64,000 nucleotides of DNA from Pseudooceanicola endophyticus. GTDB lineage: Bacteria; Pseudomonadota; Alphaproteobacteria; Rhodobacterales; Rhodobacteraceae. A program made the translations under genes and the position numbers. This document shows, piece by piece, positions 2,183 through 59,727 of the stretch (position 1 is the stretch's first letter; the number at the start of each line of letters is the position of its first letter). Under the pieces are notes generated by a model. That model saw only the letters and a program-made list of their open reading frames with translations, did no database searches and was not told where the DNA came from. The stretch covers positions 186,001-250,000 of the forward strand of contig NZ_JAHIAB010000004.1 in NCBI RefSeq assembly GCF_018760365.1, read 5' to 3'.

Positions 2183-2245
2183 CATTTTCTTGTTCCAAAT
2201 ACCTCGGGGGAGTCTTCCGGCACGGAAGACGGGGGCAGAGCCCCC
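2183..2245 (-). repeat. Composite stem-loop element, copy A1 (AACAAGAAAATG tail)
   Basis: Read on the minus strand just after the malY stop: hairpin GGGGGC-TCT-GCCCCC, then a second hairpin GTCTTCCG-TGC-CGGAAGAC, then TCCCCCGAGGTATTTGG and AACAAGAAAATG. Same architecture as the other copies, with different arms in the second hairpin. It sits 3' of malY and immediately 5' of the VOC gene, so it may act as a 3'-end structure or attenuator. Not a transposon: no coding capacity. Confidence 0.8.
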
Positions 2246-2276
2246 GCCCGATCCGCCACCCCGCGCTGTCCCGGGT

Positions 2277-3449
2277 CTACTGGAGATCCGCGAAGGCGCG
2301 CTGCATCCGCTCCACCGCCTCGACGACCCGCTCCCGCTGGGTGCCGATGTTGAAGCGCTGGAACGTTTCGCCGCCGGCCCCGAAGGCCGAGCCGAAGTTC
2401 ACCGCGATCTTGGCCTCGTCGAGGATGCGTCGCTGCACCTCCTGCGTGCTCATGCCGGTGCCCGAGAAGTCCACCCAGGCCAGGTAGGTGCCCTCCAGAC
2501 GCATCGAGCGCAGCCCCGGGATCGCGTTGATGCCGCTGTCGAACAGGTGCCGGTTGCCGTCCAGGTAGTCGCAGAGCGCATCGACCCAGGCCGCGCCCTC
2601 GGGGGCATAGGCCGCCGGCACCAGGCGCTGTGCGAAGGCATTGGGAGAGATCCCGAGCCCCGCCATCAGCTGCCCGAAGCGCTTGCGCAGCGCCGGGTCG
2701 GGGATGATCACGTTGCCGGTGTGGATGCCGGCCAGGTTGAAGGTCTTGGTGGCGGCGGTCATCATCACCAGCCGCTCGGAGATGCCCTCGTCGGCGAGGG
2801 CCATCGGCACATGGGTGTGACCGGGCATGGTGATGTCGCAATGGATCTCGTCCGAGACCAGGATCAGGTCGTGGCGCCTGGCGAAATCGGCGACCTGCTG
2901 CAGCTCGGCCTTGCTCCAGACCCGGCCGCCGGGATTGTGCGGCGAGCACAGGATGACCATCTTCTCGGAACCGTCGAGGAGGGTGTCATAGGCGTCGAAA
3001 TCCATCTCGTAACGGCCATCGACCTGGATCAGCGGGCATTCCACCACCCGGCGGCCGGCGGCTTTGATGGTGCGGGCGAAGGCGTGGTAGACCGGGGTGA
3101 ACAGCACCACGCCGTCGCCCGGCGCGGTGAAGGCCTCGACGCAGAGGCCGGTGCCGTTGACCAGCCCGTGGGTCGAGAAGATCCATTCCGGATCGATGGT
3201 CCAGCCGTGACGTGTTTCCGACCACCAGCAGACCGAGGCAAGGTAGTCGCGCTCATCGCCGAAATAGCCGAAGACCCCCTCGGCGGCATAGGCCTCCAGG
3301 GCCTGCTGGACGCTGTGCGGCGGACGGAAGTCCATGTCGGCCACCCACATGGGCAGGCCGTCCTCCGGCGACAGGCCGTAGAGCTTTTCCATCATGTCCC
3401 ATTTCGAGGAATGGGTGCCGCGTCGGTCGATGATCTCGTCGAAATTCAT
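2277..3449 (-). CDS. MalY/PatB-type PLP-dependent C-S lyase (cystathionine beta-lyase-like aminotransferase)
   Basis: Fold-type I PLP enzyme of 390 residues. MalY/PatB proteins cleave C-S bonds of cystathionine or cysteine conjugates to pyruvate, ammonia and a thiol. The start is typical (MNFDEIIDRRGTHSSKWD), followed by DGLPMWVADMDF. CSPHNPGGRVW (the Asn that contacts PLP), SDEIHCD and the PLP lysine in AATKTFN follow in the right order. A longer in-frame start reaches into a repeat; the ATG at 3449 with AGGAG upstream is clearly better. Physiological substrate (methionine cycle or degradation of S-conjugates) cannot be read from sequence. Confidence 0.88.
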   Translation of the reverse strand: MNFDEIIDRRGTHSSKWDMMEKLYGLSPEDGLPMWVADMDFRPPHSVQQALEAYAAEGVFGYFGDERDYLASVCWWSETRHGWTIDPEWIFSTHGLVNGTGLCVEAFTAPGDGVVLFTPVYHAFARTIKAAGRRVVECPLIQVDGRYEMDFDAYDTLLDGSEKMVILCSPHNPGGRVWSKAELQQVADFARRHDLILVSDEIHCDITMPGHTHVPMALADEGISERLVMMTAATKTFNLAGIHTGNVIIPDPALRKRFGQLMAGLGISPNAFAQRLVPAAYAPEGAAWVDALCDYLDGNRHLFDSGINAIPGLRSMRLEGTYLAWVDFSGTGMSTQEVQRRILDEAKIAVNFGSAFGAGGETFQRFNIGTQRERVVEAVERMQRAFADLQ

Positions 3450-3553
3450 GTCTGGCTCCTGGGGTCTTCGGCTGACGCTAGTGGAAGTCTCGGCGGGGGC
3501 AAGCCCGGGAGGGGGCGGACCCTGCGTCAGGGCGGGGTTGCGGCGAAAGGGCA

Positions 3554-3622
3554 GGGGGGGCTCTGCCCCCGTCCGCGCCGGGCGCGGACTCCCCCGGGAT
3601 ATTTTTGGCCAGATGAAAGAGC
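3554..3622 (+). repeat. Composite stem-loop element, copy C1 (GGCCAGATGA tail)
   Basis: Run of G's with CTCTG and a run of C's (hairpin), then GTCCGCGC-CGG-GCGCGGAC (second hairpin), then TCCCCCGGGATATTTTTGG and CCAGATGAAAG. It lies in the divergent gap between malY and def1, so unlike most copies it does not follow a gene on its own strand. Confidence 0.8.
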
Positions 3623-3666
3623 CGGTCCCGCGCGGGATCATTGCGCCGGCGCGGGGCATGTCCTAA

Positions 3667-4194
3667 ATGATCGGCATGAAACGCCCGATCCTGATCCATC
3701 CCGATCCGCGCCTGAAGAAGCTGGCCGACCCTGTTGCCGATGTCTCTGACACGCTGCGGGTGCTGGCGGATGACATGCTTGAGACCATGTACGACGCGCC
3801 CGGCATCGGGCTTGCCGCGCCGCAGATCGGCATCCTGCAGCGGCTGATCGTGCTGGATTGCGTCAAGGAGGGCGATGGCCCGGCGCGGCCTCTGGTGATG
3901 TTCAACCCCGAAGTGATCGCGCGTTCGGATGAGACCTCGGCCTACGAGGAGGGGTGCCTGTCGATCCCCGAGCAATATGCCGAGGTGACCCGGCCTGCCG
4001 AGGTGAGCGTGCGCTGGATGGACCGGGACGGGAACCTGCGGGAAGAGACCTTCGACAAGCTCTGGGCGACCTGCGTGCAGCACGAGATCGACCACCTCGA
4101 TGGCAAGCTGTTCATCGACTACCTGTCGCCGATGAAGCGCCAGATGATGACCCGCAAGAGCCAGAAGCTGAAGCGCGAACGGGCGCGGGCCTGA
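3667..4194 (+). CDS. def: Peptide deformylase, complete catalytic set
   Basis: Removes the formyl group from nascent N-formyl-methionyl peptides in the cytoplasm. The 175-residue protein has all three deformylase motifs: [10 protein letters not shown] (about 46-55), EGCLSIP (metal ligand Cys97) and QHEIDHL (ligands His139 and His143, catalytic Glu140). Length is normal. An alternative start at 3676 (MKRPILIHPD) is possible. It is the first of three deformylase-like genes that run straight into fmt, and the only one with fully canonical motifs, so it is the likely housekeeping enzyme. Confidence 0.95.
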   Translation: MIGMKRPILIHPDPRLKKLADPVADVSDTLRVLADDMLETMYDAPGIGLAAPQIGILQRLIVLDCVKEGDGPARPLVMFNPEVIARSDETSAYEEGCLSIPEQYAEVTRPAEVSVRWMDRDGNLREETFDKLWATCVQHEIDHLDGKLFIDYLSPMKRQMMTRKSQKLKRERARA

Positions 4195-4200
4195 GCCGGG

Positions 4201-4698
4201 GTGCCGGTCCGCGACATCCTGCTGTGGCCGGACCCGAGCCTGCGTGCCGATTGCGCGCCGCTTGAGCCCGGTGCGGCGGTGGACGCGCTGGTCGAAGACC
4301 TTCTGGACACGATGTACGCGGCACGGGGGCGCGGTCTGGCGGCGCCGCAGATCGGGGTGCTGAAGCGGGCCTTCGTGATGGATGCCGGCTGGAAGGGCGG
4401 GGCGCCTGCGCCGCGGGTCTTCCTCAATCCGCAGATCCTCTGGCGCTCCGAGGTGATCGGGCTGGGCGATGAGGCCTGCCTTTCGATCCCCGGGGTGAGC
4501 GCCGCGGTGCCGCGACCCTCGGAGGTCGTGGTGCGGTGGCACGACGTCAGATGGCAGCGGCATGAAGAGCGCCTGTGCGGGTTCGAGGCGATCTGTGCCC
4601 AGCACGAGGCCGACCATCTGGAAGGCCGGGTCTACCTGGAGTATCTGCCGCCGGCGACGAAGGCCGGGCTGCTGGCCGCTTACGAGGGAATGAGATGA
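4201..4698 (+). CDS. Second peptide deformylase, slightly divergent
   Basis: Paralogue of 165 residues starting with GTG, 6 bases after the first def gene. The metal site is intact: Cys93 in EACLSIP (usual Gly replaced by Ala) and His135-Glu136-His139 in QHEADHL; motif I reads [10 protein letters not shown]. It should therefore be able to bind metal and deformylate, but spacing between motifs and the C-terminus differ from the first copy, which suggests a different preference or a regulatory job. Its stop overlaps the start of the third copy (ATGA at 4695-4698), so the two are translationally coupled. Confidence 0.9.
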
Positions 4699-5189
4699 CG
4701 AAGAAACCCTGCCTGCCCTGGCCCGACCGCCGCCTGCGCACCGCCAGCGCCCCGGTCGAGGCCATCACCGAGGAGATCCGCGCGATCTGGAGCGACATGA
4801 TCGACACGATGGAGGCAATGCCCGGCGTCGGCCTGGCGGCGAACCAGATCGGCGTGATGCTGCGCCTGGCGGTGGTCGATGCCTCCGAAAGCCGTGGCCA
4901 GGCGGTGAAGATGGCGAATCCCGAGGTGCTTCATGCCAGCGTGCAGCTGCGCGAGCACGAGGAGGCCAGCCCCAACCTGCCCGGCGTCTCGGCGAAGATC
5001 GCGCGGCCGCGAGCGGTGACCGTGCGCTTCCTGAACGAGGCGGGCGAGATGGAGGAGCGCGATTTCGTCGGCCTCTGGGCCACCAGCGTGCAGCACCAGA
5101 TCGACCACCTGGCGGGGCGGATGTATTTCGACCATCTCGGCAAGGTGAAGCGCGACATGCTGATCCGCAAGTCGAAGAAACGCGGCTGA
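4695..5189 (+). CDS. Peptide deformylase-like protein lacking catalytic residues
   Basis: Third tandem deformylase homologue, 164 residues. Motif I is recognisable ([10 protein letters not shown], 44-53) and the fold should be kept, but motif II is EASPNLP, so the metal ligand Cys is Ser92, and motif III is QHQIDHL, so the catalytic Glu is Gln135. Both changes hit residues needed for catalysis in known deformylases. The frame is open and full length, with ATGA coupling to the gene before it and 11 bases to fmt, so it looks kept rather than decaying. A non-enzymatic role, for example binding formylated N-termini or partnering another copy, is inference. Confidence 0.88.
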
Positions 5190-5200
5190 GAGGGACGGAC

Positions 5201-6115
5201 ATGCGCATCATCTTCATGGGAACGCCGGAGTTTTCGGTTCCGGTCCTCGACGCGCTGGTGGCGGCCGGGCACGAGATCGCCTGCGTCTACTGCCAGCCGC
5301 CCCGCCCCGCCGGGCGTGGCAAGAAGGACCGTCCGACCCCGGTGCATGCCCGCGCCCTTGAGCTGGGCCTGGAGGTGCGCCACCCGGTGCGCCTGAAGGC
5401 GCCCGAGGAGCAGGCGGCTTTCGCGGCGCTGAACGCCGATGTGGCGGTGGTCGTGGCCTATGGGCTGATCCTGCCCCAGGCGGTGCTGGATGCGCCGGCA
5501 AAGGGGTGCCTCAACATCCACGCGAGCCTGCTGCCGCGCTGGCGCGGCGCGGCGCCGATCCACCGCGCGATCATGGCCGGCGATGCCGAGACCGGGGTCT
5601 GCATCATGCAGATGGAGGCGGGGCTTGATACCGGGCCGGTGCTGCTGCGCGAGGCCCTGGCGATCGGTGCCGAGGAGACCACGGCTGAATTGCATGACCG
5701 GCTTTCTGTCCTGGGCAGCCGGCTGATCACCGAGGCGCTGACGCGGCTGGACGATCTGGTCGCCGAGGAACAGCCCGAGGCGGGCGTGACCTACGCGGCC
5801 AAGATCGACAAGGCCGAGGCGCAGGTTGATTTTGCCCGCCCCGCGGAGGAGGTTGATCGGCTGATCCGCGGCTTGTCGCCCTTCCCCGGGGCCTGGGTGG
5901 AGCACGAGGGACAACGACTGAAGCTTCTCGCATCGCGGCTGGCGGAAGGATCCGGGGCGCCCGGCACGCTTCTGGACGACGCGCTGACCATCGCCTGCGG
6001 TGTGGGCGCGGTGCAGGTGCTGCGCCTGCAACGGGCGGGCAAGGGGCCGCAAGAGGCCGGGGTCTTCCTGCGCGGGATGCCCATTGCGGCGGGGGCCGTG
6101 CTGGGGGAAAGCTGA
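5201..6115 (+). CDS. fmt: Methionyl-tRNA formyltransferase
   Basis: Transfers the formyl group from 10-formyl-tetrahydrofolate to Met-tRNA(fMet) before initiation. The 304-residue protein starts [16 protein letters not shown], contains the catalytic loop [20 protein letters not shown] (about residues 106-125), and has the usual C-terminal OB-like tRNA-binding domain after residue 205. It follows three deformylase-family genes in one operon, so the enzymes that add and remove the formyl group are expressed together. A composite stem-loop element begins 4 bases after the stop. Confidence 0.97.
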
Positions 6116-6119
6116 GGCA

Positions 6120-6177
6120 GGGGGCTCCGCCCCCGTCTCCTGCGGAGACTCCCCCGAGGTATTTGGAACAAGAAAAT
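6120..6177 (+). repeat. Composite stem-loop element, copy A2
   Basis: Directly after fmt: GGGGGC-TCC-GCCCCC hairpin, GTCTCC-TGC-GGAGAC hairpin, then TCCCCCGAGGTATTTGG and AACAAGAAAATG. Position and structure fit a 3'-end processing or termination structure for the def-fmt operon. Confidence 0.8.
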
Positions 6178-6196
6178 GGGCGGGGCGGACCCTGCC

Positions 6197-6219
6197 TTTC
6201 ATCTTTCCTCAAATATGCC
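6197..6219 (-). repeat. Tail-only element, B type (B1)
   Basis: On the minus strand it reads GGCATATTTGAGGAAAGATG then AAA, the B-type tail without the two hairpins. It lies 20 bases after copy A2 and in opposite orientation, between convergent fmt and rnhA. Confidence 0.7.
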
Positions 6220-6235
6220 TGTCGGAAGGTTGGGG

Positions 6236-6688
6236 TTACTTGAACGGTGCCATGCCGGCGCGCGCCAGTTCGTCGGCGCGTTCGTTTTCCGGGTGGCCGG
6301 CGTGGCCCTTGACCCATTCCCAGGTGACGTCGTGCTGTTTCGCGGCCTCGTCAAGACGCTGCCACAGTTCGGCGTTCTTCACCGGCCTCTTGGCGGCGGT
6401 CTTCCAGCCGTTGCGCTTCCAGCCGTGAATCCAGCCGGTAACGCCGTTCTTCACATACTGGCTGTCGGTAATGATGGTGATCCGCGTGGGGCGGCCCAGG
6501 GTCTCCAGCGCGTGGATCGCGGCCAGAAGTTCCATGCGGTTGTTGGTGGTGTTGGCCTCGCCGCCCTTCAGCTCGCGTTCCTTCAGCAGCGTGTCGCCGT
6601 CCTTCGCCTGCAAAAGTGCGCCCCAGCCGCCCGGGCCGGGATTGCCGGAGCAGGCGCCGTCGGTGAAGGCGTAAAGGGTCGTGGGCAT
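6236..6688 (-). CDS. rnhA: Ribonuclease HI
   Basis: Degrades the RNA strand of RNA-DNA hybrids (R-loops, primer remnants). The 150-residue protein carries the full DEDD set: [16 protein letters not shown] (Asp), NRMELLAAI (Glu), [11 protein letters not shown] (Asp) and [12 protein letters not shown] (Asp), plus the basic handle region GWKRNGWKT. Normal length, single domain. It is transcribed away from ispH's 3' end and convergently with fmt. Confidence 0.97.
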
Positions 6689-6767
6689 GGCGCTCTCCTG
6701 AAGTTGCGCCGGGTGTGGCCCGGGGGGCGCGCAAAGGTCAAGGGCAAAGCAAAGCCGGTTGGGCGGG

Positions 6768-6826
6768 GCCGCCGGCTCCGCAGGAGGCGGCAGGCGCAGG
6801 GGCGGCTCGATGCCGCGCCTGCGCCT
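6768..6826. repeat. Two-hairpin element with TCGAT loop, copy 1
   Basis: Begins GCCGCCGGCTCCGCAGGAG, followed by a 15-bp stem with one mismatch (6792-6806 with 6812-6826) closed by the loop TCGAT. The first 29 bases match the copy at 15789 at all but one position, and the stem bases that differ between copies change in pairs. On the minus strand it lies 3 bases after the ispH stop, so it would form the 3' end of that transcript. Confidence 0.75.
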
Positions 6827-6829
6827 CTC

Positions 6830-7780
6830 TCAGGCGGGAACGCGCAGGACCCGCGGGACCTTGAATTCGACGTTTTCCTGCGCGGTTTCCACCAGGTCGA
6901 CCGTCACCTCGTAACGGGCGCGCAGGGCGTCGATGACCTCGTCCACCAGCACTTCGGGCGCAGAGGCCCCGGCGGTGATGCCGATCGAGCGGATGCCTTC
7001 CAGCGCGCGCCAGTCGATCTCTCCGGCGCGCTGGACCAGCTGGGCATAGCCGCAGCCCTCGCGGGCGGCGACCTCGACCAGGCGGCGCGAGTTCGAGGAG
7101 TTGGGCGCGCCGACCACCAGCATGGCGTCGATCTTGCCGGCCATCGCCTTCACCGCCTCCTGGCGGTTGGTGGTGGCATAGCAGATGTCTTCCTTGTGCG
7201 GCCCGACGATGGCGGGGAAGCGGGCCTGAAGCGCCGCGACGATCCCCTTGGTGTCATCGACCGACAGGGTGGTCTGGGTGACGAAGGCCAGTTTCTCAGG
7301 ATTGCGCACCGCGAGGGTCGCCACGTCGGCCTCGGTTTCCACGAGCAGGACCTCGCCCTCGGGCAGCTGGCCCATGGTGCCGATCGTCTCGGGGTGGCCG
7401 GCATGGCCGATCATGATGATCTGAAGGCCGGCCTCGTGGTGGCGTTCGGCCTCGATATGCACCTTGGAGACCAGCGGGCAGGTGGCGTCGACAAAGACCA
7501 TCTCGCGGGCCTGGGCGGCGGCGGGCACCGATTTCGGCACGCCGTGGGCCGAGAAGATCACCGGCCGGTCAAGCGGGCATTCGTCCAGCTCTTCGACGAA
7601 GACCGCGCCCTTGTCGCGAAGGCCGTCGACGACGAATTTGTTGTGCACGATCTCGTGACGCACGTAGACCGGGGCGCCCCATTTCTCCAGCGCCATCTCG
7701 ACGATCTTGATGGCACGGTCGACGCCGGCGCAGAACCCGCGCGGCGCGGCAAGGTAGAGGGTGAGGGGCGGCTTGGTCAT
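6830..7780 (-). CDS. ispH: 4-hydroxy-3-methylbut-2-enyl diphosphate reductase
   Basis: Last enzyme of the MEP isoprenoid pathway; a [4Fe-4S] enzyme making IPP and DMAPP. The 316-residue protein has the three cluster cysteines in context ([30 protein letters not shown]), the HxE-type motif [10 protein letters not shown] and [10 protein letters not shown]. Two nearby ATGs exist; the one at 7780 is preferred because AGGAG ends 6 bases before it, whereas it touches the upstream one. In phototrophic or carotenoid-making relatives this step feeds pigments, but no pigment genes are in view here. Confidence 0.97.
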
Positions 7781-7832
7781 CGGCATCTCCTGTTGCCCCC
7801 AGAGGTAGGCGATGCAGCGCCAGCCCGCAAGT

Positions 7833-8300: not shown

Positions 8301-8345
8301 CGGATCGCGCCTGCGAAGGCCGGGCCCGTTGGGCCCCGGCCCGCA

Positions 8346-15707: not shown

Positions 15708-15716
15708 GCGCGGGCA

Positions 15717-15780
15717 GGGGGCTCTGCCCCCATCGCGGCGGGGCCGCGATTCCCCCGGCATATTTGTGGAAAGATGAAAG
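15717..15780 (+). repeat. Composite stem-loop element, copy B2 (GGAAAGATGAAAG tail)
   Basis: GGGGGCTCTGCCCCC hairpin, ATCGCGGC-GGG-GCCGCGAT hairpin, then TCCCCCGGCATATTTGTGG and AAAGATGAAAG. It begins 10 bases after the acpS stop. Confidence 0.8.
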
Positions 15781-15788
15781 GGGCGGTG

Positions 15789-24523: not shown

Positions 24524-24537
24524 CCACGGTCGGCCAA

Positions 24538-24679
24538 GGGCTCTGCCCCTCTGGCGCCCGTCCCGGGCGCCATTCACCCCGGGATATTTCCGGCCAGATG
24601 ATGAAGAGCCGGGCTCCCTGTCATCTGGCCAGAAATATCCCGGGGGAGGCCGCCGCAGGCGGGCGGGGGCAGAGCCCCC
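24538..24679. repeat. Inverted pair of composite elements, C2 and C3, forming one large palindrome
   Basis: Copy C2 (plus) follows ade: GGGC-TCT-GCCC, then TGGCGCCCG-TCC-CGGGCGCCA, then the tail. Copy C3 (minus) follows alkB in mirror order, with a second hairpin that has one mismatch. The tails face each other and pair over 25 bases with one mismatch (24577-24601 with 24621-24645); a small GAGCC/GGCTC hairpin fills the loop. The outer hairpins are also mutually complementary. Fits a bidirectional transcript end for the convergent genes. Confidence 0.8.
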
Positions 24680-24683
24680 TGCT

Positions 24684-33204: not shown

Positions 33205-34092
33205 TCAGGCGGCGGCGGTTTCCAGCAGGCCGGCATGGGCCAGCGCGGCGCGGATCGCCGCCTTGGTGGTGTCTTCCAGCGGCATCAGCGGCAGGCGCAC
33301 CTCGTCCGAGCACAGGCCCAGCACCGACATGGCGTACTTGGCGCCGCAGACGCCGGGCTCCATGAAGATCGCCTCGTGCAGGGGCATCAGCCGGTCCTGG
33401 AACTTCAGCGCGGTGGCATAGTCGCCGGCCAGGCAGGCGGCCTGCATGTCGGCACACAGCTTCGGCGCGACGTTCGCGGTGACCGAGATGCAGCCGACGC
33501 CGCCCATGGCGTCGAAGCCGACGGCGGTCGCGTCTTCACCCGAAAGCTGGCAGAAGTCGGGGCCGCAGGCCATGCGGGTCTGGGCGACGCGGGCCAGATC
33601 GCCGGTCGCGTCCTTGACGCCGATGATGCGCGGCAGCTTTGCCAGCTCCGCCATGGTGGCGGGCTTCATGTCCACGACCGAGCGGCCGGGAATGTTGTAG
33701 ATGACGATCGGCAGATCGCAGCAGTCATGCATCGCGGTGTAATGCGCGATCATGCCCCTGGCGGTCGGCTTGTTGTAGTAGGGGGTCACCACCAGGGCGG
33801 CATCGGCACCGACTTCGGCGGCGTGCTTGATCAGGCGGATGCCTTCCAGCGTGTTGTTGGCACCGGCGCCCGCGATCACCGGGATGCGACCGGCGGCGGC
33901 CTTCACGACCTCTTCCACGACCTGCTCGTGTTCGCGCAGGCTGAGGGTGGGCGATTCGCCCGTCGTGCCCACCGGAACCAGCGCCGAGGAGCCCTGCGCC
34001 ACATGCCAGTCGACCAGCTTCTTGAGCGTATCGAGATCCACTGCGCCGTCCTTGAACGGCGTGACCAGGGCAGGGATGGACCCTTTGAACAT
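33205..34092 (-). CDS. dapA: 4-hydroxy-tetrahydrodipicolinate synthase
   Basis: First committed step to diaminopimelate and lysine: condenses pyruvate with aspartate semialdehyde. The 295-residue TIM barrel has [10 protein letters not shown] at the start, [10 protein letters not shown] (active-site Thr pair), the Tyr in [17 protein letters not shown] and the Schiff-base Lys in [13 protein letters not shown]. asd, which supplies its substrate, is also in the window at 52.5 kb but separate. Confidence 0.97.
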
Positions 34093-38858: not shown

Positions 38859-38922
38859 GAGGGGCGCTGCCCCTCTTGCGCCTGCGGCGCAATTCACCCC
38901 GGGATATTTCGGGCCAGATGAC
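38859..38922 (+). repeat. Composite stem-loop element, copy C4
   Basis: GAGGGGC-GCT-GCCCCTC hairpin (38859-38875), TTGCGCC-TGC-GGCGCAA hairpin (38876-38892), then TTCACCCCGGGATATTTCGG and GCCAGATGA. It begins 4 bases after the FAD-oxidoreductase stop and lies between convergent genes. Confidence 0.8.
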
Positions 38923-38934
38923 AGAGAGCCCGGG

Positions 38935-40478: not shown

Positions 40479-40530
40479 AGCGCCCTGTCGGGCGCTGCCT
40501 GCGGCGCAGGTATTTCGAACAAGAAAATGA
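40479..40530 (+). repeat. Variant element A3 (hairpin abutting GGTATTT tail)
   Basis: Hairpin AGCGCCC-TGTC-GGGCGCT, then CCTGC-GGC-GCAGG running straight into TATTTCGAACAAGAAAATG. The tail is the A type with the CCCCCGA part replaced by the arm of the second hairpin. It lies between fbp and rpe. Confidence 0.7.
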
Positions 40531-48139: not shown

Positions 48140-48254
48140 GCCTCCGGCGGAGGTATTTAAGACAAGAAAATGAGGGGGCGGCGCCCTGAATGCATTTTCT
48201 TGTCCCAAATACCTCGGGGGAGTCGCGCCCTGGCGCGACGGGGGCAGGGCCCCC
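48140..48254. repeat. Inverted pair of composite elements A4/A5 between binding-protein and permease genes
   Basis: Copy A4 (plus): CCTCC-GGC-GGAGG running into TATTTAAGACAAGAAAATG. Copy A5 (minus): GGGGGC-CCT-GCCCCC, GTCGCGCC/GGCGCGAC, TCCCCCGAGGTATTTGG, GACAAGAAAATG. The two tails pair as AGGTATTT (48151-48158) with AAATACCT (48207-48214) and ACAAGAAAATG (48162-48172) with CATTTTCTTGT (48193-48203), a 19-bp stem with a 3x3 internal loop, inside a polycistronic message. Confidence 0.8.
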
Positions 48255-48284
48255 GCCACCCGACAAGGAAGACCAAGACCTGCC

Positions 48285-50065: not shown

Positions 50066-51651
50066 GCCTTCTCGACATCCGGAACCTCTCGCTCTCGATC
50101 CACGGCACGCCGATCCTGCACGACGTGTCGCTGCGCCTCGACCCGGGCCGCATCCTGGGCGTCATCGGCGAAAGCGGCTCGGGCAAGTCGATGACCGCCT
50201 TCACGGTGATGCGCCTGCTGCCCGAGGGGGCAGAGGCCAGCGGCCAGGTCACGCTGGACGGCCAGCCGATCCTGAGCCGAAGCGAGGCGCAGATGTGCGC
50301 CCTGCGCGGGCGCGACATCGGCATGGTCTTCCAGGAGCCGATGACGGCGCTCAACCCGCTGAAGACCATCGGCGATCAGGTGGCCGAGACGATCCTGATC
50401 CACGAGAAGATCCCGAAACGCGCCGCCATGATCCGCGCCGCCAAGGCGCTGGCGCGCGCCGAGCTGCCGCAGGACCGCTTTCCGCTGAGCCGCTATCCCC
50501 ATGAACTCTCCGGCGGTCAGCGCCAGCGGGTCGTCATCGCCATGGCGATCGCGCTGCGCCCGAAGCTGCTGATCGCGGATGAACCGACCACGGCGCTTGA
50601 TGTCACCACCCAGGCGCAGATCCTGCGGCTGCTGACCCGCCTCGTGCGCGAGGATGGCATGGGCCTGATGATGATCACCCATGATCTTGCCGTGGTGGCG
50701 GAAATGGCGGACGAGATCGCGATCATGCAGAAGGGCAGGGTGGTCGAGGCCGGTCCCACCGGCGCGCTGCTGGAAAACCTTCAGCACCCCTATTCCCGCG
50801 CCCTGCTGGCCGCCTCGACCCATGCGCCCGCCCGCAGCCCCGCCGCGCAGGACACCCCGCTGCTGGAGGTGACGGCGGTGCACCGCTTCTACCCGACGCC
50901 GCGCAAGTCGCTCTTCGGGGCGCCGGGGCGCTTTCACGCGGTCAAGGGCGTCTCCTTCAAATTGCGCAAGGGCGAAAGCCTGGGCCTGGTCGGCGAATCA
51001 GGCTGCGGCAAGTCCACCCTGACCCGTGCCATCCTGGGGCTGGAGCAGATCCAGGACGGCGCGATCCGGCTGAACGGGCGCCCGGTCTTCCAGGGCCGCC
51101 AGCCCGATCCGGAGGTCCGCCGCCGCATGCAGGTGGTCTTCCAGGACCCCTACGGCAGCTTCAATCCCCGCCACCGGGTGGGCCGCCTGGTGGCCGAGCC
51201 GTTTCATCTTTCCCCAAATATGCCCCGCGCGGAGCGCGATACCGCCGTTGCCGAAGCGCTGACGGCGGTGGGGCTGACCCCGGGCGACGCCGACAAGTAC
51301 ATCCACGAATTCTCGGGCGGGCAGCGCCAGCGCATCGCCATCGCCCGCGCGCTCATCACCCGCCCCGAGCTGATCCTGCTGGACGAGGCGGTCTCGGCGC
51401 TGGACGTGCAGGTGCGCGCGCGCATCCTCGACCTGCTGGCGGATCTCTCGGCGCGCTACGGGCTGTCCTATCTCTTCATCTCGCACGACCTCTCGGTGGT
51501 GCGGGCGATCACCGACCGGGTGATGGTCATGAAGGCCGGAGAGATCGTCGAAGCCGGCCCGACCGAGACGGTGTTCCGCGATCCCCGGCACCCCTATACC
51601 CGCCAGCTGCTGGCGGCGGCGCCGCGCCTGCCCGAGGGGCTGGGGTCCTGA
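50062..51651 (+). CDS. Double ATP-binding protein of the peptide-type ABC importer (DppD-DppF fused)
   Basis: One 529-residue protein holds both ATPase domains. First domain (about 1-260): Walker A GESGSGKS, signature LSGGQRQRV, Walker B LLIADEPT. Second (about 270-529): Walker [10 protein letters not shown], signature FSGGQRQRI, Walker B LILLDEAV. Each domain ends with the oligopeptide-transporter C-terminal motif ([21 protein letters not shown]). Residues at about 381-388 (PFHLSPNM) are encoded by a sequence matching an intergenic repeat tail (51202-51224), in a loop between the Q-loop region and the signature where family members vary. Confidence 0.93.
51202..51224 (-). repeat. B-type repeat tail inside the ATPase gene (B3)
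   Basis: Read on the minus strand: GGCATATTTGGGGAAAGATG then AAA, the same 23-base tail as at 59706 and 55383. It is in frame on the plus strand and encodes FHLSPNM. Only the tail is present, without the two hairpins. Confidence 0.75.
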
Positions 51652-53627: not shown

Positions 53628-53725
53628 GGGGGAATGCCGCCGGTTTCGGGCGGCACGGGAAAAGGCGTTTGCGGTCGGGGCCTTGGAATGCTCAGGCTGG
53701 GGCGATGCAACCCGGAGGAGTGTCC

Positions 53726-55348
53726 ATGCGTCCCGTTCCGCCCCGTGCCCTGTTTTCTGGCCCCCTGATCGCCACGCTCTGCCTGGTCGCGCCCGCCCTG
53801 CGCGCCGAGGAAGTGGTGCTGAGCGGGCAGGTCCGTCAGGTGACGCTCTATCCGGATGCGGCGCGGGTAGCGCGTGCGGTGCCGCTGGACCTGGCGCCGG
53901 GAGATCACCAGCTGGTGCTGCCCGACATGCCCTTCGTCGATCCCGCCCTGCTGCGGATCACCACGCCCTCGGGGCAGATCGGGGCGGTGCGCTGGCGGGA
54001 CAGCGCCCTGCCGCCCCGCACCGAGGCGGACAGCCCCGCGATCCGCGACGCCCGCGCCCGGGTGAAGGACGCGAAGGCTGCCGTCGATGCGTTGGAAACC
54101 CGCGCCAAGGGCGCCGAGGCCGAGGCCGCTGCCGCCGGGGACCGGCTGAAGGTGCTGGCCGGGCTGGGCCAGAACCCCGCCGCCGCCGATCCCGCGACGC
54201 TGCCGCAGCTGCTGTCGGTGGTGGCCACCCAGAGCCTTGCGGCGCGTCAGGACCAGCTGGCGGCCGAGGGGCGCGCGAAGGCGCTGCGCGACGGACTGCC
54301 GCCCCTGCAAAAGGCGCAGGAGGCCGCCGAGCAGGCGCTTGCCGCCCTGCTGACCGCCGCCGGTGGGCGCGCCCGCCTGGTGGTCGATTTCAGCAATGAC
54401 AGCGCGGTGCAGGGCGAGATGACGGTCTCTTACCTGACCCAGGACGCGGGCTGGCAGCCGGCCTATGACGTCTCGCTTGTCACCACCGGGGCCAGCCCGG
54501 CGCTGGAGATCGCCCGCAAGGCTGTGATCCGGCAGGCGAGCGGCGAGGATTGGTCCGATGTGAAGCTCGACCTGTCCACCGCGCGGCCCTCGGGGCAGGT
54601 CGCCCCCTCCGAACTCTGGCCCGAGCTGCTGCGCTACGGCGATCCGCGCGCGCCGATGCCGCTGGCCCGTGCCGCCGGCGCGCCGGTGGCCGAGATGATG
54701 ATGAAGGCCGATGCGGTCTCGCCCAATGACGGGCTGACGCTGGACTATGCCTACCCCCAGCCGGTGAGCCTGGCGAATGGCGCCGAGGCGCTGACGCTGT
54801 CGCTGGGAGAGACCCGGCTGGCCCCCGAGCTTTATGCCCGGGCGGTGCCGATGTCCGATCCCTCGGCCTATCTGATGGCGGGCTTCACCAATGAGGGCAC
54901 GGAGCCGCTGCTGGCCTCCGACCAGGCGGCCTTCTACCTGGACGGCACCTACATGGGCACCCGCAGCCTGCCGCTGCTGCCGGCGGGCTCTGCGGCGGAC
55001 TGGTCCTTCGGCCCGATCGACGGGCTGCGGCTGGAACGCCAGGTGGTGGCACGTTCGGAAGGGGATCGCGGCGTGATCGCGAAGTCGAACCGGCGCGAGG
55101 AAGAGGTGCGTCTGGTGCTGAAGAACCAGACCCGGCGCGACTGGGATCTGCGCGTGACCGACCGGGTGCCCTATTCCGAGCAGGACGACCTGAAGATCAC
55201 CTGGCAGGCCGATCCGGCGCCCGAGGCCCGGGACGTGGACGGCCAGCGCGGGATCTTGGAATGGCGCCTGCCGCTGGCGGCCGGGGTGGAGAAGGTGATC
55301 ACCCTGCAGGACAGCGTCAGCTGGCCCGAGGGCAAGGTGCTGAACTAG
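53726..55348 (+). CDS. Exported DUF4139 (mucoidy-inhibitor MuiA-like) protein
   Basis: A 540-residue protein with an N-terminal signal peptide (cut near LRAEE). Residues about 28-130 form a DUF4140-like N-terminal domain (VVLSGQVRQVTLYPDAARVARAV), 120-235 an Ala/Gln-rich coiled coil, and the rest a DUF4139 domain (SYLTQDAGWQPAYDVSL, ASGEDWSDVKLDLSTARP, VRLVLKNQTRRDWDLRVTDRVPYSEQDDLKI). Family function is unknown; the name comes from a weak link to mucoidy. GGAGGAG precedes the ATG. Ends in an array of repeat tails shared with the convergent carbonic anhydrase gene. Confidence 0.85.
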   Translation: MRPVPPRALFSGPLIATLCLVAPALRAEEVVLSGQVRQVTLYPDAARVARAVPLDLAPGDHQLVLPDMPFVDPALLRITTPSGQIGAVRWRDSALPPRTEADSPAIRDARARVKDAKAAVDALETRAKGAEAEAAAAGDRLKVLAGLGQNPAAADPATLPQLLSVVATQSLAARQDQLAAEGRAKALRDGLPPLQKAQEAAEQALAALLTAAGGRARLVVDFSNDSAVQGEMTVSYLTQDAGWQPAYDVSLVTTGASPALEIARKAVIRQASGEDWSDVKLDLSTARPSGQVAPSELWPELLRYGDPRAPMPLARAAGAPVAEMMMKADAVSPNDGLTLDYAYPQPVSLANGAEALTLSLGETRLAPELYARAVPMSDPSAYLMAGFTNEGTEPLLASDQAAFYLDGTYMGTRSLPLLPAGSAADWSFGPIDGLRLERQVVARSEGDRGVIAKSNRREEEVRLVLKNQTRRDWDLRVTDRVPYSEQDDLKITWQADPAPEARDVDGQRGILEWRLPLAAGVEKVITLQDSVSWPEGKVLN

Positions 55349-55382
55349 GCCGGCGGCGCGCCCGGCGGCAGCGGCGCGACGT

Positions 55383-55537
55383 GCATATTTGGGGAAAGAT
55401 GAATGGGGGGTGGCCCGGCGGGGCAGCCGCCCGTCCCTTGCCAGCGGGGCGAGTCCGTATTTGGGGAAAGATGAAACCGGAAGGTGAAAGAGGCACCGGG
55501 GGGATCCGGTGCCTCTTTCATCTTTCCATAAATATGC
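55383..55537. repeat. Three B-type tails (B4, B5, B6) with a nested terminator hairpin
   Basis: Tails at 55383-55405 and 55457-55477 (plus) and 55515-55537 (minus). B5 and B6 face each other and pair (GGAAAGATGAAA with TTTCATCTTTCC); between them lies a perfect 13-bp stem, AAAGAGGCACCGG (55487-55499) with CCGGTGCCTCTTT (55506-55518), loop GGGGAT. Located between the convergent DUF4139 and carbonic anhydrase genes, it should work as a bidirectional terminator. Confidence 0.75.
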
Positions 55538-55567
55538 AGTCGCACCGGGCGGGGCCGGCGCGCGGCC

Positions 55568-56218
55568 TCAGATGGCGCGGAAGGCCTTCTGGTCGGGCAG
55601 GTACTGTTCGACCGAGCCATTGCCGATGTCGTGCCACAGGCCGTGCAGCGACAGGTTCTCGGCTTCCACGGCGTCCTTCACGAAGGGGAAGGTCATCAGG
55701 TTCTCGAGCGAGACCAGGACGGCCTCCTTCTCCAGCGCGTCGCGCTGTGCCTCGTAGCCCTGGATGTCCTTGACCCGGTCGTAGCCCGGGCGCAGCAGGT
55801 CCATCCAGCGACCGACGAAGCTGGATTCCTCTTCCAGCTCAGGCGCATGGCCCGAGCACATGTCGAGGCAGCCCTGAACGCCACCGCATTTCGAATGGCC
55901 CATGATCACCACATGGGCGACCTTGAGGGCGGTCACCGCATATTCCAGCGCTGCCGAGGTGCCGTGCTGCTGGCCGTCGGGCTGGTAGGGGGGCACCAGG
56001 TTGGCAATGTTGCGGTGAATGAAGAACTCACCCTGGTCGGCGCCGAAGATGCCGGTCACATGCACGCGCGAGTCGCAGCAGGAGATGATCATCGTCTTCG
56101 GGCGCTGGCCCTCGTCGGCAAGGCGGCGGTACCAGGACTTGTTCTCGGTGAAGGTGGTGGCCTTCCAGCCGTGATAACGCTGTACCAGCAGGCTGGGCAG
56201 TGGCTTGGCGTGCTCCAT
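55568..56218 (-). CDS. can: Beta-class carbonic anhydrase
   Basis: Interconverts CO2 and bicarbonate. The 216-residue protein has zinc ligands Cys in ISCCDSRVHVTGIFGADQGEFF and His/Cys in MGHSKCGGVQG, with the catalytic Asp-Arg dyad in CDSRV. Length and motif spacing are those of the Can/CynT beta class. An in-frame upstream start would prolong the N-terminus by about 46 residues without resemblance to the family; the ATG at 56218 with CGGAG upstream is used. Confidence 0.95.
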   Translation of the reverse strand: MEHAKPLPSLLVQRYHGWKATTFTENKSWYRRLADEGQRPKTMIISCCDSRVHVTGIFGADQGEFFIHRNIANLVPPYQPDGQQHGTSAALEYAVTALKVAHVVIMGHSKCGGVQGCLDMCSGHAPELEEESSFVGRWMDLLRPGYDRVKDIQGYEAQRDALEKEAVLVSLENLMTFPFVKDAVEAENLSLHGLWHDIGNGSVEQYLPDQKAFRAI

Positions 56219-56423
56219 GGTAAACTCCGGACGCTGAAATCGTATCGCGCGGACTATAGGGCCGTGGCGGGGGCGTTGAAATGCGGAAACCGCCAATTGG
56301 CGGAAAATCCTTTGCAAAACCGGGCGCATCACCCCTGCAAAACCGCAAAGCTGCAAGTCTTTGGGAACTTCCTTGCGCGAGGGTGTGCGCTGCCGTGGGG
56401 GCGCAGAGAAGGGGGTGCGAAAG

Positions 56424-56804
56424 GTGAGCCAGATCCTGGTGATGACCCGGAGCGAGCCGGTGGGGCTTGATCCGGAACGGCTGCGGCAGCTTTATGCCCA
56501 GCTTGGCGAGGCCGGGGCCGACAACGTGGTCTGCCGCGCCATGGAGGAGCTGGCGCTGCGCTTCTCCCATGCCGACCGGATGCTGCGCGAAGGCCGCCGG
56601 GAGGAGCTGCGCAAGGCCGTGCGCTCGCTTGCGGCGATTGCCGACCAGGTGGGGATGACGCTGCTGTCGCGGGTGGCGGGGGATGTCGGAGCCTGTCTGG
56701 GGGGCGGCGACGATGTGGCGCTTGCGGCCACTTTCGCGCGTCTGCTGCGAGTCGGCGAAAGCTCTCTCATGGCGATCTGGGAGCTGCAGGACATCACGCT
56801 CTGA
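56424..56804 (+). CDS. Small helical protein, unassigned; weak Hpt-like look
   Basis: A 126-residue mostly helical protein: VSQILVMTRSEPVGLDPERLRQLYAQLGEAGADNVVCRAMEELALRFSHADRMLREGRREELRKAV (read in parts) then AIADQVGMTLLSRVAGDVGACLGGGDDVALAATFARLLRVGESSLMAIWE. The helix pattern around RKAVRSLAAIADQVGMTLLSRVAGDV resembles histidine phosphotransfer domains, but the acceptor His is absent (Arg-Ser there). GTG at 56424 with GAAGGGGG upstream is chosen; ATG at 56442 is possible. I cannot assign a function. Confidence 0.6.
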   Translation: MSQILVMTRSEPVGLDPERLRQLYAQLGEAGADNVVCRAMEELALRFSHADRMLREGRREELRKAVRSLAAIADQVGMTLLSRVAGDVGACLGGGDDVALAATFARLLRVGESSLMAIWELQDITL

Positions 56805-56880
56805 GCGGTCCTGCGCGGCAGCCCTTGCGGCGGCGCGCAGCCGGGATAGGCTGGGCGGACCCGACAGCAGGAGCGCCAGA

Positions 56881-58284
56881 ATGCCCAAGACCCCCGCCCT
56901 TACCTTCGCCCAGGACAGTGCCGGCGCGCTGCCGCTGCACGTGATCGAAACCGCCGCCCTGGCCCCCTGGCTGGAGGCGCAGCCCGCCGAGGTCGCGACC
57001 TGGGTGCGCGCCAGCGGTTTTACCGGCGCCCTGTCGCAGGCCTGCTTGGTGCCGGGGCCCGAGGGTCGTCCGGCGATGGCGCTGGCGGGCTACGGCGATG
57101 CGGCGGCGCGGGCGCGGTCCCGCTTCGTGCTGGCCGGTGCGGCGGCACGGCTGCCGGCGGGGGACTACCGGATCGCCTCGGGCCTGCCCGAGGAGGCCGC
57201 CGAGACCGAGGCCCTGGGCTGGCTTTTCGCCGGCTACGCCTTTGATCGCTACCGTGCGCAATCCGGCGTGAAGGCGCGTCTGGTGGCGCCGGACGGCATC
57301 CGCGCCGACCGGCTGGAAGCCATTGCCGCCGGCGAGGCGCTGACCCGCGACCTGATCAACACCCCGGCCTCCGACATGGGCCCGGCAGAGCTGGAAGCCG
57401 CCGCCCGCAGCCTGGCCGAGACCTTCGGCGCCCGGGTCGAGGTCACCACCGGAGAGGCCCTGCTGGCGCAGAACTTCCCGATGATCCACGCGGTCGGGCG
57501 TGCCGCCGCGCCGCATCGTGCGCCCCGGCTGATCGACCTGCGCTGGGGCGACAACGGCCCGATGCTGACGCTGGTCGGCAAGGGGGTCTGCTTCGACACC
57601 GGCGGGCTTGACCTGAAGCCCGCTTCCTCGATGGGGCTGATGAAGAAGGACATGGGCGGCTCGGCCACGGTGCTGGGGCTGGCGCGGATGATCATGGCGC
57701 GCGATCTGCCGGTGCGGCTGCGGGTGCTGATCCCGGCGGTCGAGAACGCGGTGGCGGGCGATGCCTTCAGGCCCCAGGACATCCTGACCTCCCGCAAGGG
57801 GCTGACGGTCGAGATCAACAATACCGATGCCGAGGGGCGGCTGGTGCTGGCCGATGCCCTGGCCTACGGGGCCGAGGAAAAGCCCGACCTGATGATCTCC
57901 TTCGCGACGCTGACGGGGGCCGCGCGGGTCGCCGTGGGCCCCGATATCGCGCCCTATTTCACCGATGATGCCGATGTGGCGGCGGCGCTGGAAAGCTCGG
58001 CCGCCGTGGTGGCGGATCCGGTCTGGCGGCTGCCCTTCCACGAGGCTTACGAAAGCATGATCGAACCCGGCATCGCCGATCTGGACAATGCGCCGAAGGG
58101 TGGGTTCGCGGGCTCCATCACGGCGGCGCTGTTCCTGCGCCGCTTTGCCGGGCCGGGCCTGCGCTACACCCATTTCGACATCTACGGCTGGGCGCCCTCG
58201 GATCTGCCGGGCCGCACGAAGGGCGGTACCGGGCAGGGCGCGCGGGCGCTCTTCTCGGCCCTGCCGGGGCTGCTGGGACTGTGA
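56881..58284 (+). CDS. Leucyl aminopeptidase family (M17) protein
   Basis: A 467-residue dizinc aminopeptidase of the M17 family. The C-terminal catalytic domain has VGKGVCFDTGGLDLKP (Lys and metal Asp), KKDMGGSATVLG and the signature NNTDAEGRLVLADAL. The N-terminal domain is short and divergent, as in the PepB/cysteinyl-glycine-type branch. Likely cytoplasmic peptide turnover. Its stop overlaps the GTG of the next gene by four bases, so the two peptidases are coupled. Confidence 0.93.
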   Translation: MPKTPALTFAQDSAGALPLHVIETAALAPWLEAQPAEVATWVRASGFTGALSQACLVPGPEGRPAMALAGYGDAAARARSRFVLAGAAARLPAGDYRIASGLPEEAAETEALGWLFAGYAFDRYRAQSGVKARLVAPDGIRADRLEAIAAGEALTRDLINTPASDMGPAELEAAARSLAETFGARVEVTTGEALLAQNFPMIHAVGRAAAPHRAPRLIDLRWGDNGPMLTLVGKGVCFDTGGLDLKPASSMGLMKKDMGGSATVLGLARMIMARDLPVRLRVLIPAVENAVAGDAFRPQDILTSRKGLTVEINNTDAEGRLVLADALAYGAEEKPDLMISFATLTGAARVAVGPDIAPYFTDDADVAAALESSAAVVADPVWRLPFHEAYESMIEPGIADLDNAPKGGFAGSITAALFLRRFAGPGLRYTHFDIYGWAPSDLPGRTKGGTGQGARALFSALPGLLGL

Positions 58285-59195
58285 GCGCGCCAGACCGCCG
58301 CCGCTGGCCCTGCAATGGCCGCGTCGCCGCCGAGCGCCTGCGCGGCCAGGCCGAGGCGCGGCATTTCACCGCCGGAGAGCTCTGCCGGGTGAAGGCCCCC
58401 GCCGCCGATCTGCTGGACGCCCCCGGGGGGGCGCGCGACCGCCAGCTGCTGCATGGCGATGAGGTACTGGTCTACGAGGTCCGTGAGGGCATGGCCTTCC
58501 TGGAGGCCCGCAAGGATGGTTACACCGGCTACCTGGAGGCCGCGGCCCTGGCGCCGGACCGGCCCGGCGCGCGGCCCAATGCCGCCGTCCGCCTGCGCGA
58601 GACGCTCTGCTACGACCGCCCGAGCGCCCGCAGCATGGCCTCGGGGCGGCTTTCGCTCGGCGCCCGGGTGCTGGTCGAAAGCCTGGAAGACGGCTGGGCG
58701 CGCACCGGCGCGGGGTACATTCCCGCCGCCCACCTGGATCTCGATCTCCGCCCCGAGGTCGATCCGGTCGCGGTTTCGGCCCGCCTTCTGGGCATGCCCT
58801 ATCTCTGGGGCGCCAACGGTTTCGGCGGCATCGACTGTTCCGGCCTGGTGCAGGCCGGCTGCCTCGCCTGCGGCATCGCCTGCCCGGGCGACAGCGACAT
58901 GCAGTCCCGCGAACTGGGCGATCCGCTGCCCGCGGACGCCCCGCTTGCCCGTGGCGACCTGCTGTTCTGGAAGGGCCATGTCGCCTGGGTCGCCGATCCG
59001 CGGACCATCCTGCATGCCAATGGCCACAGCATGAGCGTCGCCTACGAGGGCCTCCCCGAGGCCATTGCCCGCATCGCCGCCAGCGACGGCCCGGTCACCG
59101 CCCGCCGCCGCCTGCCGGGGCTGGACGCGCGGCTGGCCCGCGCCTCTGCCCATTTTCTTGTTCCAAATACCTCGGGGGGATCAGCCGCAGGCTGA
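58281..59195 (+). CDS. NlpC/P60 (C40) peptidase with SH3-like domains
   Basis: A 304-residue protein: two SH3-like domains (about 15-160; LHGDEVLVYEVREGMAFLEARKDGYTGYL is the first) then an NlpC/P60 domain with Cys in GIDCSGLVQAG, His in FWKGHVAWV and a polar third residue in HANGHSM. Cuts peptidoglycan stem or other peptides with D-Glu-mDAP links. No signal peptide is seen. GTG start overlaps the M17 stop. The last 14 residues (HFLVPNTSGGSAAG) are encoded by a composite intergenic element that belongs to the opposing DUF2794 gene, so the original stop was probably lost or displaced. Confidence 0.88.
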   Translation: MSAPDRRRWPCNGRVAAERLRGQAEARHFTAGELCRVKAPAADLLDAPGGARDRQLLHGDEVLVYEVREGMAFLEARKDGYTGYLEAAALAPDRPGARPNAAVRLRETLCYDRPSARSMASGRLSLGARVLVESLEDGWARTGAGYIPAAHLDLDLRPEVDPVAVSARLLGMPYLWGANGFGGIDCSGLVQAGCLACGIACPGDSDMQSRELGDPLPADAPLARGDLLFWKGHVAWVADPRTILHANGHSMSVAYEGLPEAIARIAASDGPVTARRRLPGLDARLARASAHFLVPNTSGGSAAG

Positions 59196-59212
59196 GGGGG
59201 GCAGCGCCCCCC
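59151..59212 (-). repeat. Composite stem-loop element, copy A6
   Basis: On the minus strand after the DUF2794 gene: GGGGGGC-GCT-GCCCCCC, TCAGCC-TGC-GGCTGA, TCCCCCCGAGGTATTTGG, AACAAGAAAATG. Its tail half lies inside the 3' end of the opposite-strand NlpC/P60 gene and supplies that gene's last codons and stop. Confidence 0.8.
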
Positions 59213-59225
59213 GCCAACGCCGGTC

Positions 59226-59567
59226 CTATTCGACCGCGCGGATCAGCTTGCGCTCCAGCACCCGCAGCACGGTGCGCAGGTCGTGGCCGCGTTTCATCAC
59301 CTGTCCGTCCATGCCGAGCACGGCGTACATGCCCTGCCTGTTGCGCAGCTTCGGGCGCTTTTCGATCCGGTAGAGCGGGTGTTCGGCGGTGCGCCGGAAG
59401 ATCGAGAAGACGGCCACGTCGCTCAGCGCGGAGATGCCGTAATCGCGCCATTCGCCTGCCGCCACCATCCGCCCGTAGAGCGACAGGATGATGTTCAGCT
59501 CGGTCCGGTGGAAAGCCACCTGCTGGGCGGAGCCCCCTGGGATCGGGGGCGGTGTTTGCACTGTCAT
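59226..59567 (-). CDS. DUF2794 protein
   Basis: A 113-residue protein of the alphaproteobacterial DUF2794 family: FHRTELNIILSLYGRMVAAGEWRDYGISALSDVAVFSIFRRTAEHPLYRIEK and RNRQGMYAVLGMDGQVMKRGHDLRTVLRVLERKLI, read in parts. Soluble, no known function. The ATG at 59567 is preferred to longer in-frame frames that run through repeat B7. Confidence 0.87.
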   Translation of the reverse strand: MTVQTPPPIPGGSAQQVAFHRTELNIILSLYGRMVAAGEWRDYGISALSDVAVFSIFRRTAEHPLYRIEKRPKLRNRQGMYAVLGMDGQVMKRGHDLRTVLRVLERKLIRAVE

Positions 59568-59660
59568 GAAGAAAAGGTGCGCCCGGTGCGGGGCAAAATC
59601 AAGGTGCTTCGTGGTGGCGCCGTGCCGGTGGCGGGGCGATGCGCCGGTTTCGGGCGGTGC

Positions 59661-59727
59661 GGGGGGCTCTGCCCCCCTCGGCGCGTGCCGCGCCGAGTCC
59701 CCCGCCATATTTGGGGAAAGATGAAAG
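59661..59727 (+). repeat. Composite stem-loop element, copy B7
   Basis: GGGGGGC-TCT-GCCCCCC hairpin, CTCGGCGCG-TGC-CGCGCCGAG hairpin, then TCCCCCGCCATATTTGGGG and AAAGATGAAAG. It ends 6 bases before the imuB stop, in opposite orientation to both neighbouring genes. Confidence 0.8.

Follow-up and report, generated by a model that had tools for sequence, protein, structure and literature searches.

Introduction

The closest known system to the element described here, a composite intergenic repeat that occurs ten times in a 64,000-nt stretch of the Pseudooceanicola endophyticus genome (NZ_JAHIAB010000004.1, positions 186,001 to 250,000; hereafter the window), is the BoxC/PIT/TM_ECO family of Escherichia coli, which is reportedly also associated with the names of Hoyne and Maher. 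The main text of Holder et al. (2015, PMC4666352) describes these sequences as intrastrand triplex repeats, found in E. coli as well as in other proteobacteria, that show no bias toward 3′ ends and have no function in gene expression that could be found; in E. coli, they are reported to lie upstream of open reading frames more often than downstream. According to the same text, the E. coli copies are nearly identical, so that their sequence could not separate structure from ancestry.

The window element consists, in order, of a G-run hairpin, a variable second hairpin (H2), a C-run (C2), 4 nt, TATTT and a tail; in the first hairpin, a purine run (R) faces its complement (C1). It resembles BoxC/PIT/TM_ECO in being G/C-rich, intergenic and repeated, in having, on one strand, three homopurine/homopyrimidine blocks with a 3-nt linker, and in sometimes forming inverted pairs that combine two subtypes, as described in the main text of PMC4666352. 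The two differ in that TM_ECO is of class II (Y-R-R, with Y for pyrimidine and R for purine blocks) with 9-nt blocks, whereas the present element is R-Y-Y (class III, or class I on the other strand) with blocks of 4-8 nt and has in addition the H2 insert, TATTT, the tail and a strong bias toward gene ends. The TM_ECO consensus CCCTCNCCC-N3-6-GGGNGAGGG-N3-GGGNGAGGG (class II) had no match in the window and none in the 1.65 Mb, out of 5.23 Mb, of the host genome that many of our host scans cover; in these 1.65 Mb, the blocks before TATTT had the order R-Y-Y 90 times and Y-R-R 0 times. The element also resembles H-DNA in containing a homopurine/homopyrimidine mirror repeat (C1-linker-C2), and differs from it in being much shorter and in carrying an additional purine run, with which a single strand can fold by itself.

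Intrastrand triplex repeats as such are known already; new here are the block order, the lineage, the insert, the gene-end position and the covariation of triads. In the literature searched, we found no link between triplex repeats and Rhodobacterales, nor the motif strings of the element. Rhodobacter, Roseobacter, Paracoccus and Alphaproteobacteria are absent from the main text of PMC4666352, but single copies may be listed in its ITxF database, which spans 5246 genomes and plasmids. Rfam gave no match in the window at gathering score and, at E<=1, solely an unrelated microRNA model (33230-33329).

Here we describe a family of elements that occurs in many genera of Rhodobacterales, in which three blocks covary in mirror geometry, H2 is optional and the position is at gene ends. 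On balance, these comparisons favor the view that the composites are intrastrand-triplex-forming gene-end elements across the order, probably serving as bidirectional boundaries.

Results

The copy lying directly past the stop codon of fmt (6119..6180, + strand; tail A), a match of our covariance model, illustrates the anatomy. Its purine run GGGGG (R, 6120..6124, +), read from the sequence and homologous to the asymmetric runs of relatives, is followed by its Watson-Crick partner C1 (6130..6134, +), assigned from sequence and covariation analysis. Next come H2, GTCTCC-TGC-GGAGAC (6135..6149, +), which is absent in H2-less relatives and is taken here as the C1-C2 linker, and C2 (6151..6155, +), the proposed Hoogsteen third strand, on the grounds that its length tracks R/C1 and that relatives show mirror covariation. 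The 4-nt junction GAGG, TATTT and tail A (6156..6178, +; from sequence and the exact tail pattern) complete the copy.

In 80 relatives' loci around fmt and in further genomes, the core consists of R, its complement C1, a 3-nt linker (GGA, AGA, AAA, GCG or ACA), C2, usually 4 nt, and TATTT. A looser scan of the 80 loci returned 23 rows (4 in the reversed control), of which one duplicate and one row inside a gene were set aside; of the 21 elements left, 10 lack H2. Because relatives' cores show the same order without H2, we regard H2 as a closed insert in the linker's place. Within the order, a pattern with an exact 3-nt linker matched 178 genomes out of 292 and 85 genera out of 112, and its reversed control none. 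In a class-wide sample, a looser pattern matched 7 of 289 genomes (reversed control, 4 matches in 2 genomes): the host, three genomes of other families with true-looking cores (G048, G183 and G250) and three chance-like cases (G051, G202 and G304). Three further same-family genomes in that sample had no match to the looser core pattern.

Where an A occurs in R, C2 mirrors C1, as in GAGGGG/CCCCTC/CTCCCC and GGGGAGG/CCTCCCC/CCCCTCC. Two patterns neutral between mirror and direct repeats, which accepted any six-pyrimidine C2, matched 69 (GAGRRG) and 11 of 198 family genomes, and an explicit direct-repeat pattern for GAGGGG matched none of the 198. From the matches listed, we typed 114 distinct sequences (two sites of genome G344 appear twice in the typed listings); 112 were parsed, 2 were not and 4 were symmetric. 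The 108 asymmetric sequences among the matches listed were exact mirrors in 97 cases and closer to the mirror than to the direct repeat in 6; 5 were ties, and no sequence was closer to the direct repeat. Since these rows share ancestry, the fair independent support is not the 97 rows; it is the eight run types found with an exact mirror: GAGAGG, GAGAGGGG, GAGGGG, GAGGGGG, GGAGGGG, GGGAGGGG, GGGGAGG and GGGGGAGG. The left end of some of the eight was inferred from C1; GGGGAGG and GGGGGAGG were fully read in L079 and L040, and the host genome itself yielded a full asymmetric run, GGGGGGA/TCCCCCC/CCCCCCT, read in L094.

Given this mirror geometry, Watson-Crick pairing cannot explain C2; an intrastrand triple helix, with C2 as the Hoogsteen third strand, does. 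Neither a copying process nor a Watson-Crick fold that yields mirror images is known to us, and, as far as we are aware, such a pattern is required only by a three-stranded fold of DNA or RNA. As set out in the main text of PMC4666352, a foldback third strand needs mirror repeats, and its direction relative to the purine strand is parallel in the pyrimidine motif and antiparallel in the purine motif. We also considered pairing of C2 with the 4-nt junction (CTC with GAG) and rejected it, as the junction is independent of C2 (CTCTCC-GGGA, CTCCCC-GGAG, CTCCCC-GAGG and CCCCTCC-GGGA).

In the host genome, R, C1 and C2 track each other in length. Among 87 parsed composites, 78 have C2 = min(R, C1), with r=0.76; a permutation test of 20,000 shuffles gave its lowest attainable value, p=5e-5 (76 of the 163 tails were left unparsed, mostly for want of this head). 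The sequence-only reading had treated TCCCCCG as merely a constant tail; its C-run in fact tracks the G-run and, in relatives, mirrors it Hoogsteen-wise. A purine run, the complement of that run and a third strand compatible with Hoogsteen pairing, the three parts of an intrastrand triplex, are all present, in the window copies by run length and homology only. ITxF admits blocks of 6-15 nt and loops of 1-6 nt. The window copies, whose blocks are mostly 5 nt long and whose hairpin insert exceeds 6 nt, fall outside this range; H2-less relatives whose runs are GAGGGG or longer fall inside it.

All ten composites and the seven further tail or partial copies claimed for the window were recovered at or beside their expected places, as 17 exact tails, 10 with a composite head and 7 without. 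The whole host genome holds 75 A-type tails (ACAAGAAAATG) and 236 of B/C type (GGNNAGATGA), and the reversed patterns 0 and 0. A covariance model built from the ten composites gave 103 matches at E<=1e-6 in the 1.65 Mb, a count that includes the ten model-building copies, which match by construction. Across the 103 copies, in an alignment that was fitted to the structure, 199 cells changed on both sides; shuffled versions gave 54.4 +/- 5.3 and slid ones no more than 56. Nearly all of these two-sided changes fall in H2, and hairpin 1 hardly varies. The covariation check on host copies therefore bears out the claim that H2 stays self-complementary as its letters change. That its arms differ in every copy does not hold genome-wide: 81 copies with a parsed stem share 43 distinct 5′ arms, the commonest of which, GTCTCC, occurs in 19, and an identical arm is found with each of the three tail types. 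The analysis supports two proposals made from the window letters, that structure is under selection and that the position is at 3′ ends; a part in 3′-end formation, processing or stability, also suggested there, may apply, although copies lie in both orientations. The two-hairpin view falls short, as it overlooks the third pyrimidine run and the optional nature of H2. Set against the sign of local GC skew, the composites numbered 35, 13, 25 and 16, with no clear replication-strand bias.

Position relative to genes was scored in the 1.65 Mb with a home-made codon-model gene caller. The 163 tails fell into convergent gaps (84), tandem gaps (38 co-oriented and 28 anti), divergent gaps (10) and called genes (3), with total intergenic lengths of 29.6 kb convergent, 110.4 kb tandem and 59.6 kb divergent. 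Among gaps of at least 60 bp, a tail is present in 63 of the 131 convergent gaps, in 51 of the 497 tandem gaps and in 8 of the 226 divergent gaps. The excess in convergent gaps, together with the 10 of 160 intergenic tails in divergent gaps, agrees with a placement at gene ends. The further claim that most copies follow a stop codon on their own strand is true of 122 of the 163 tails (stop codon to TATTT, median 56.5 nt, maximum 810); in tandem gaps, the sole informative ones, the bias in orientation is weak, with 38 co-oriented against 28 anti and 28 against 18 for singles (p=0.18). The 21 elements of relatives divided into 11 convergent, 10 tandem and 0 divergent. Of 26 matches on annotated plasmid records, 8 were inspected. 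Copies in Marinibacterium, Sagittula and Aliiroseovarius agree with the gene-end position; a Cereibacter copy lies in a gap annotated as divergent and a Pseudosulfitobacter copy is oppositely oriented, and two Paracoccus records have no gene table at the copy.

A second head, consisting of a variable hairpin and GCCTCCGGCGG with the same tails, is a frequent tail-to-tail partner of the triplex head (heads II and I, respectively) in the host. With tail A, its 11-mer covaries as a hairpin (CCTCC/GGAGG, CCTTC/GAAGG, CCTGC/GCAGG); this head shows no third strand. Tail-to-tail doublets number 21 among the 163 tails, 17 of them with a gap of 17-23 nt, and tail types are alike within 11 of 20 doublets against 7.5 expected (p=0.07). 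Same-strand doublets of B type, 33-55 nt apart, occur 7 times in the 1.65 Mb, including 55386-55474.

The gap at the end of fmt varies across the host and 21 congeners: head I faces tail B in the host, G012 has head II, heads I and II face each other in G001, G004 and G007, and the other genomes have other sequence or neighbors. Among 111 adjacent gene pairs shared with genome G015, 13 host gaps contain an element, and 4 of these also do so in G015, compared with 0 of the 98 element-free gaps (hypergeometric chance, 1.2e-4). At one pair (host C34:159230), the elements are plainly homologous, with H2 and the tail both changed. This partial sharing indicates that elements are partly inherited and partly gained or lost.

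Among the matches listed, tails are near-uniform within a genome and differ between genomes, much as dialects of a signal for uptake or protein binding would; genome-specific forms are GGCAAGATGA in G027 and G031, GGAAAGATGA in G005 and G032, and GGCCAGATGA in G012. The host carries three tail types simultaneously. Exact matches to this tail pattern, on both strands, number 0 or 1 in 7 of the 21 congeners.

Discussion

In the mechanism that we propose, R would pair with C1 as a Watson-Crick hairpin, and C2 would turn back via the 3-nt linker, or via a closed H2 with adjacent feet, and become the third strand of the hairpin. The tail strand would have the order R-Y-Hoogsteen (class III) and the other strand reverse-Hoogsteen-R-Y (class I). 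H2 would need only to be closed, so that its letters drift and its pairing stays. Since the element sits where polymerase should stop, in both orientations, we infer that the triple helix, if it forms, may act as a bidirectional gene-end boundary; it would slow or end run-on transcription, with TATTT, 4 nt downstream, as a weak-hybrid release site. A bolder version, in which gene ends of Rhodobacterales are marked by a DNA triple helix and the single strands that transcription or replication exposes fold into a knot of three strands and stop polymerases from both sides between convergent genes, is somewhat less likely than not, and we put it forward tentatively.

The base opposite the A of GAGGGG bears on whether the fold would be one of DNA or RNA. 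We scored it in 150 rows among the matches listed. Where the linker is no longer than 6 nt (123 rows), C2 carries T in 113 rows, A in 8, C in 2 and G in 0; in the 27 rows with a longer linker, nearly all with a hairpin (two, from G344, without), it carries A in 18, T in 6 and G in 3. Both motifs accommodate T at this place; A is compatible solely with a purine-motif triad (T.A:T) on the complementary strand. According to the main text of PMC4666352, a purine-motif triplex cannot form in RNA. Given that A is tolerated at this position, the counts lean weakly toward a triplex in DNA rather than in RNA. As a separate observation, G488 is the sole genome among the matches listed with G opposite the run's A; its listed H2-bearing elements share a GGC[G/A]C stem, and their C2 is CAC[T/G/A]CCCC.

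Several points weigh against a triplex boundary. Runs are short at 4-8 triads, most host copies having 5, and acid pH is required for a contiguous C+.G:C triplex. Eight of the ten window copies have pure-G runs, for which the mirror test comes down to length and homology only; in the copy at 38859, the run's A is faced by A instead of T, and the copy at 24535 has an irregular run. The preference for A over C with short linkers is small, 8 to 2, and the excess of A over T with longer linkers may reflect a T:A pair closing H2. Canonical terminators, scored with a home-made predictor, are not clearly rarer at elements, either at convergent ends (18/118 against 27/122 without an element, p=0.19) or at tandem ends (5/49 beside elements against 37/427, p=0.79). 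On a Loktanella salsilacus plasmid (L233), a copy lies inside the phn operon, between phnK and phnL and directly past the phnK stop, and hence cannot end all transcription there, unless phnL is transcribed from a promoter of its own. Orthologous gaps turn over, 9 of the 13 host elements not being shared with G015. Lastly, PIT/TM_ECO triplexes are described in the main text of PMC4666352 as having no terminator activity and as forming no stable triplex in vivo.

The main rival is an RNA element, a class III triplex or just two hairpins in mRNA, that acts as an intrinsic terminator or as an exonuclease-resistant 3′ end. The gene-end location and the strong covariation of H2 suit it, and, as in intrinsic terminators, GC-rich hairpins lie past stop codons and are followed by an A/T stretch. 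A typical copy has 9 nt between C2 and the end of TATTT, and the RNA-DNA hybrid is about that long. Typical intrinsic terminators differ in having a U-run of at least four directly after the hairpin; here the U-tract is TATTT only, conserved 4 nt past C2 in the parsed copies, with longer T-runs in single copies, and the element has conserved sequence beyond it, a third strand and both orientations. Pyrimidine-motif triplexes are possible in RNA, as the main text of PMC4666352 notes. A contiguous C+ stretch at neutral pH, the tolerance of A opposite the run's A, the slight preference for co-orientation in tandem gaps (38 to 28) and the copy internal to the phn operon all speak against RNA, and we consider this explanation rather unlikely.

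A further rival is a mobile repeat of the REP/REPIN type that is tolerated at gene ends and has no host role. REPs prefer convergent gaps, and the present element, like REP, REPIN and BIME sequences, is extragenic, prefers convergent gaps and forms inverted doublets; palindromic units in inverted doublets, a mark of REP/RAYT systems, were indeed found (21 doublets among 163 tails). High copy number, the regular tail-to-tail spacing, the genome-specific tail dialects and the species turnover noted above point the same way. The host genome, however, has no Y1 (RAYT) transposase (PF01797; 0 matches, with the same search positive in 5 of 14 controls), and the element differs further in its variable arms and its mirror covariation, which mobility does not predict. 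Since H2 differs among copies with an identical tail, whole units are not freshly copied, and element gaps are shared with G015 in 4 of 13 cases against 0 of 98 element-free ones, one of them clearly homologous. Mobility without a host role thus appears distinctly unlikely.

Pairing might also be kept without selection, by hairpin-templated correction during replication, which would give compensatory changes in H2 and R/C1; it leaves both the mirror relation of C2 and the gene-end bias unexplained, and we judge it very unlikely. A Watson-Crick switch in which C1 and C2 compete for one G-run accords with the equal run lengths and is nevertheless already refuted for the asymmetric elements examined, and highly improbable overall, because in such a switch C2 must repeat C1 directly, a relation found in 0 of the 108 listed asymmetric sequences and, for GAGGGG, in 0 of 198 genomes.

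Three blocks that vary jointly, triad by triad, in Hoogsteen register and across many genera, provide comparative evidence for a triplex like that by which RNA helices were established. The gene-end location suggests a function, and makes the role of three-stranded folds in marking gene ends testable. If the triplex boundary is real, a non-B DNA structure held by triad covariation would serve as bidirectional punctuation between convergent genes.

Other copies in the window

Besides the fmt copy, covariance model matches with a full composite are found at 2181..2246 (− strand, tail A, 80.8 bits with model R1), 3555..3620 (+, tail C, 85.5 bits), 15716..15781 (+, tail B), 24617..24680 (−, tail C), 48191..48255 (−, tail A), 59149..59212 (−, tail A, runs 6/6/6) and 59661..59728 (+, tail B). 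The full composite at 24535..24605 (+, tail C) has the run AAGGG/CCCCT with C2 CACCCC and forms a converging pair with the 24617 copy; that at 38859..38925 (+, tail C) has the run GAGGGG with C2 CACCCC.

The remaining seven copies are exact tails. At 6199..6215 (−), a tail B without a triplex head lies past the converging gene, tail-to-tail with the fmt copy. Tail A follows a second head at 40497..40529 (+; short hairpin CCTGC-GGC-GCAGG) and at 48140..48172 (+; the GCCTCCGGCGG type), the latter tail-to-tail with the 48191 copy. Tails B without a triplex head at 55386..55402 and 55458..55474 (both +) form a same-strand doublet, and a third, at 55518..55534 (−), faces the 55458 copy. The perfect tail B at 51204..51220 (−) lies inside an ABC-transporter gene. 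We considered a tail insertion here and rejected it: the G015 ortholog keeps the same FHLS residues, so the match is native coding sequence and probably not a member of the family.

Two records among the relatives' loci, titled Nocardioides marinus (L005) and Enemella evansiae (L043), have an fmt gene 80% and 76% identical to that of the window, and their titles look wrong.

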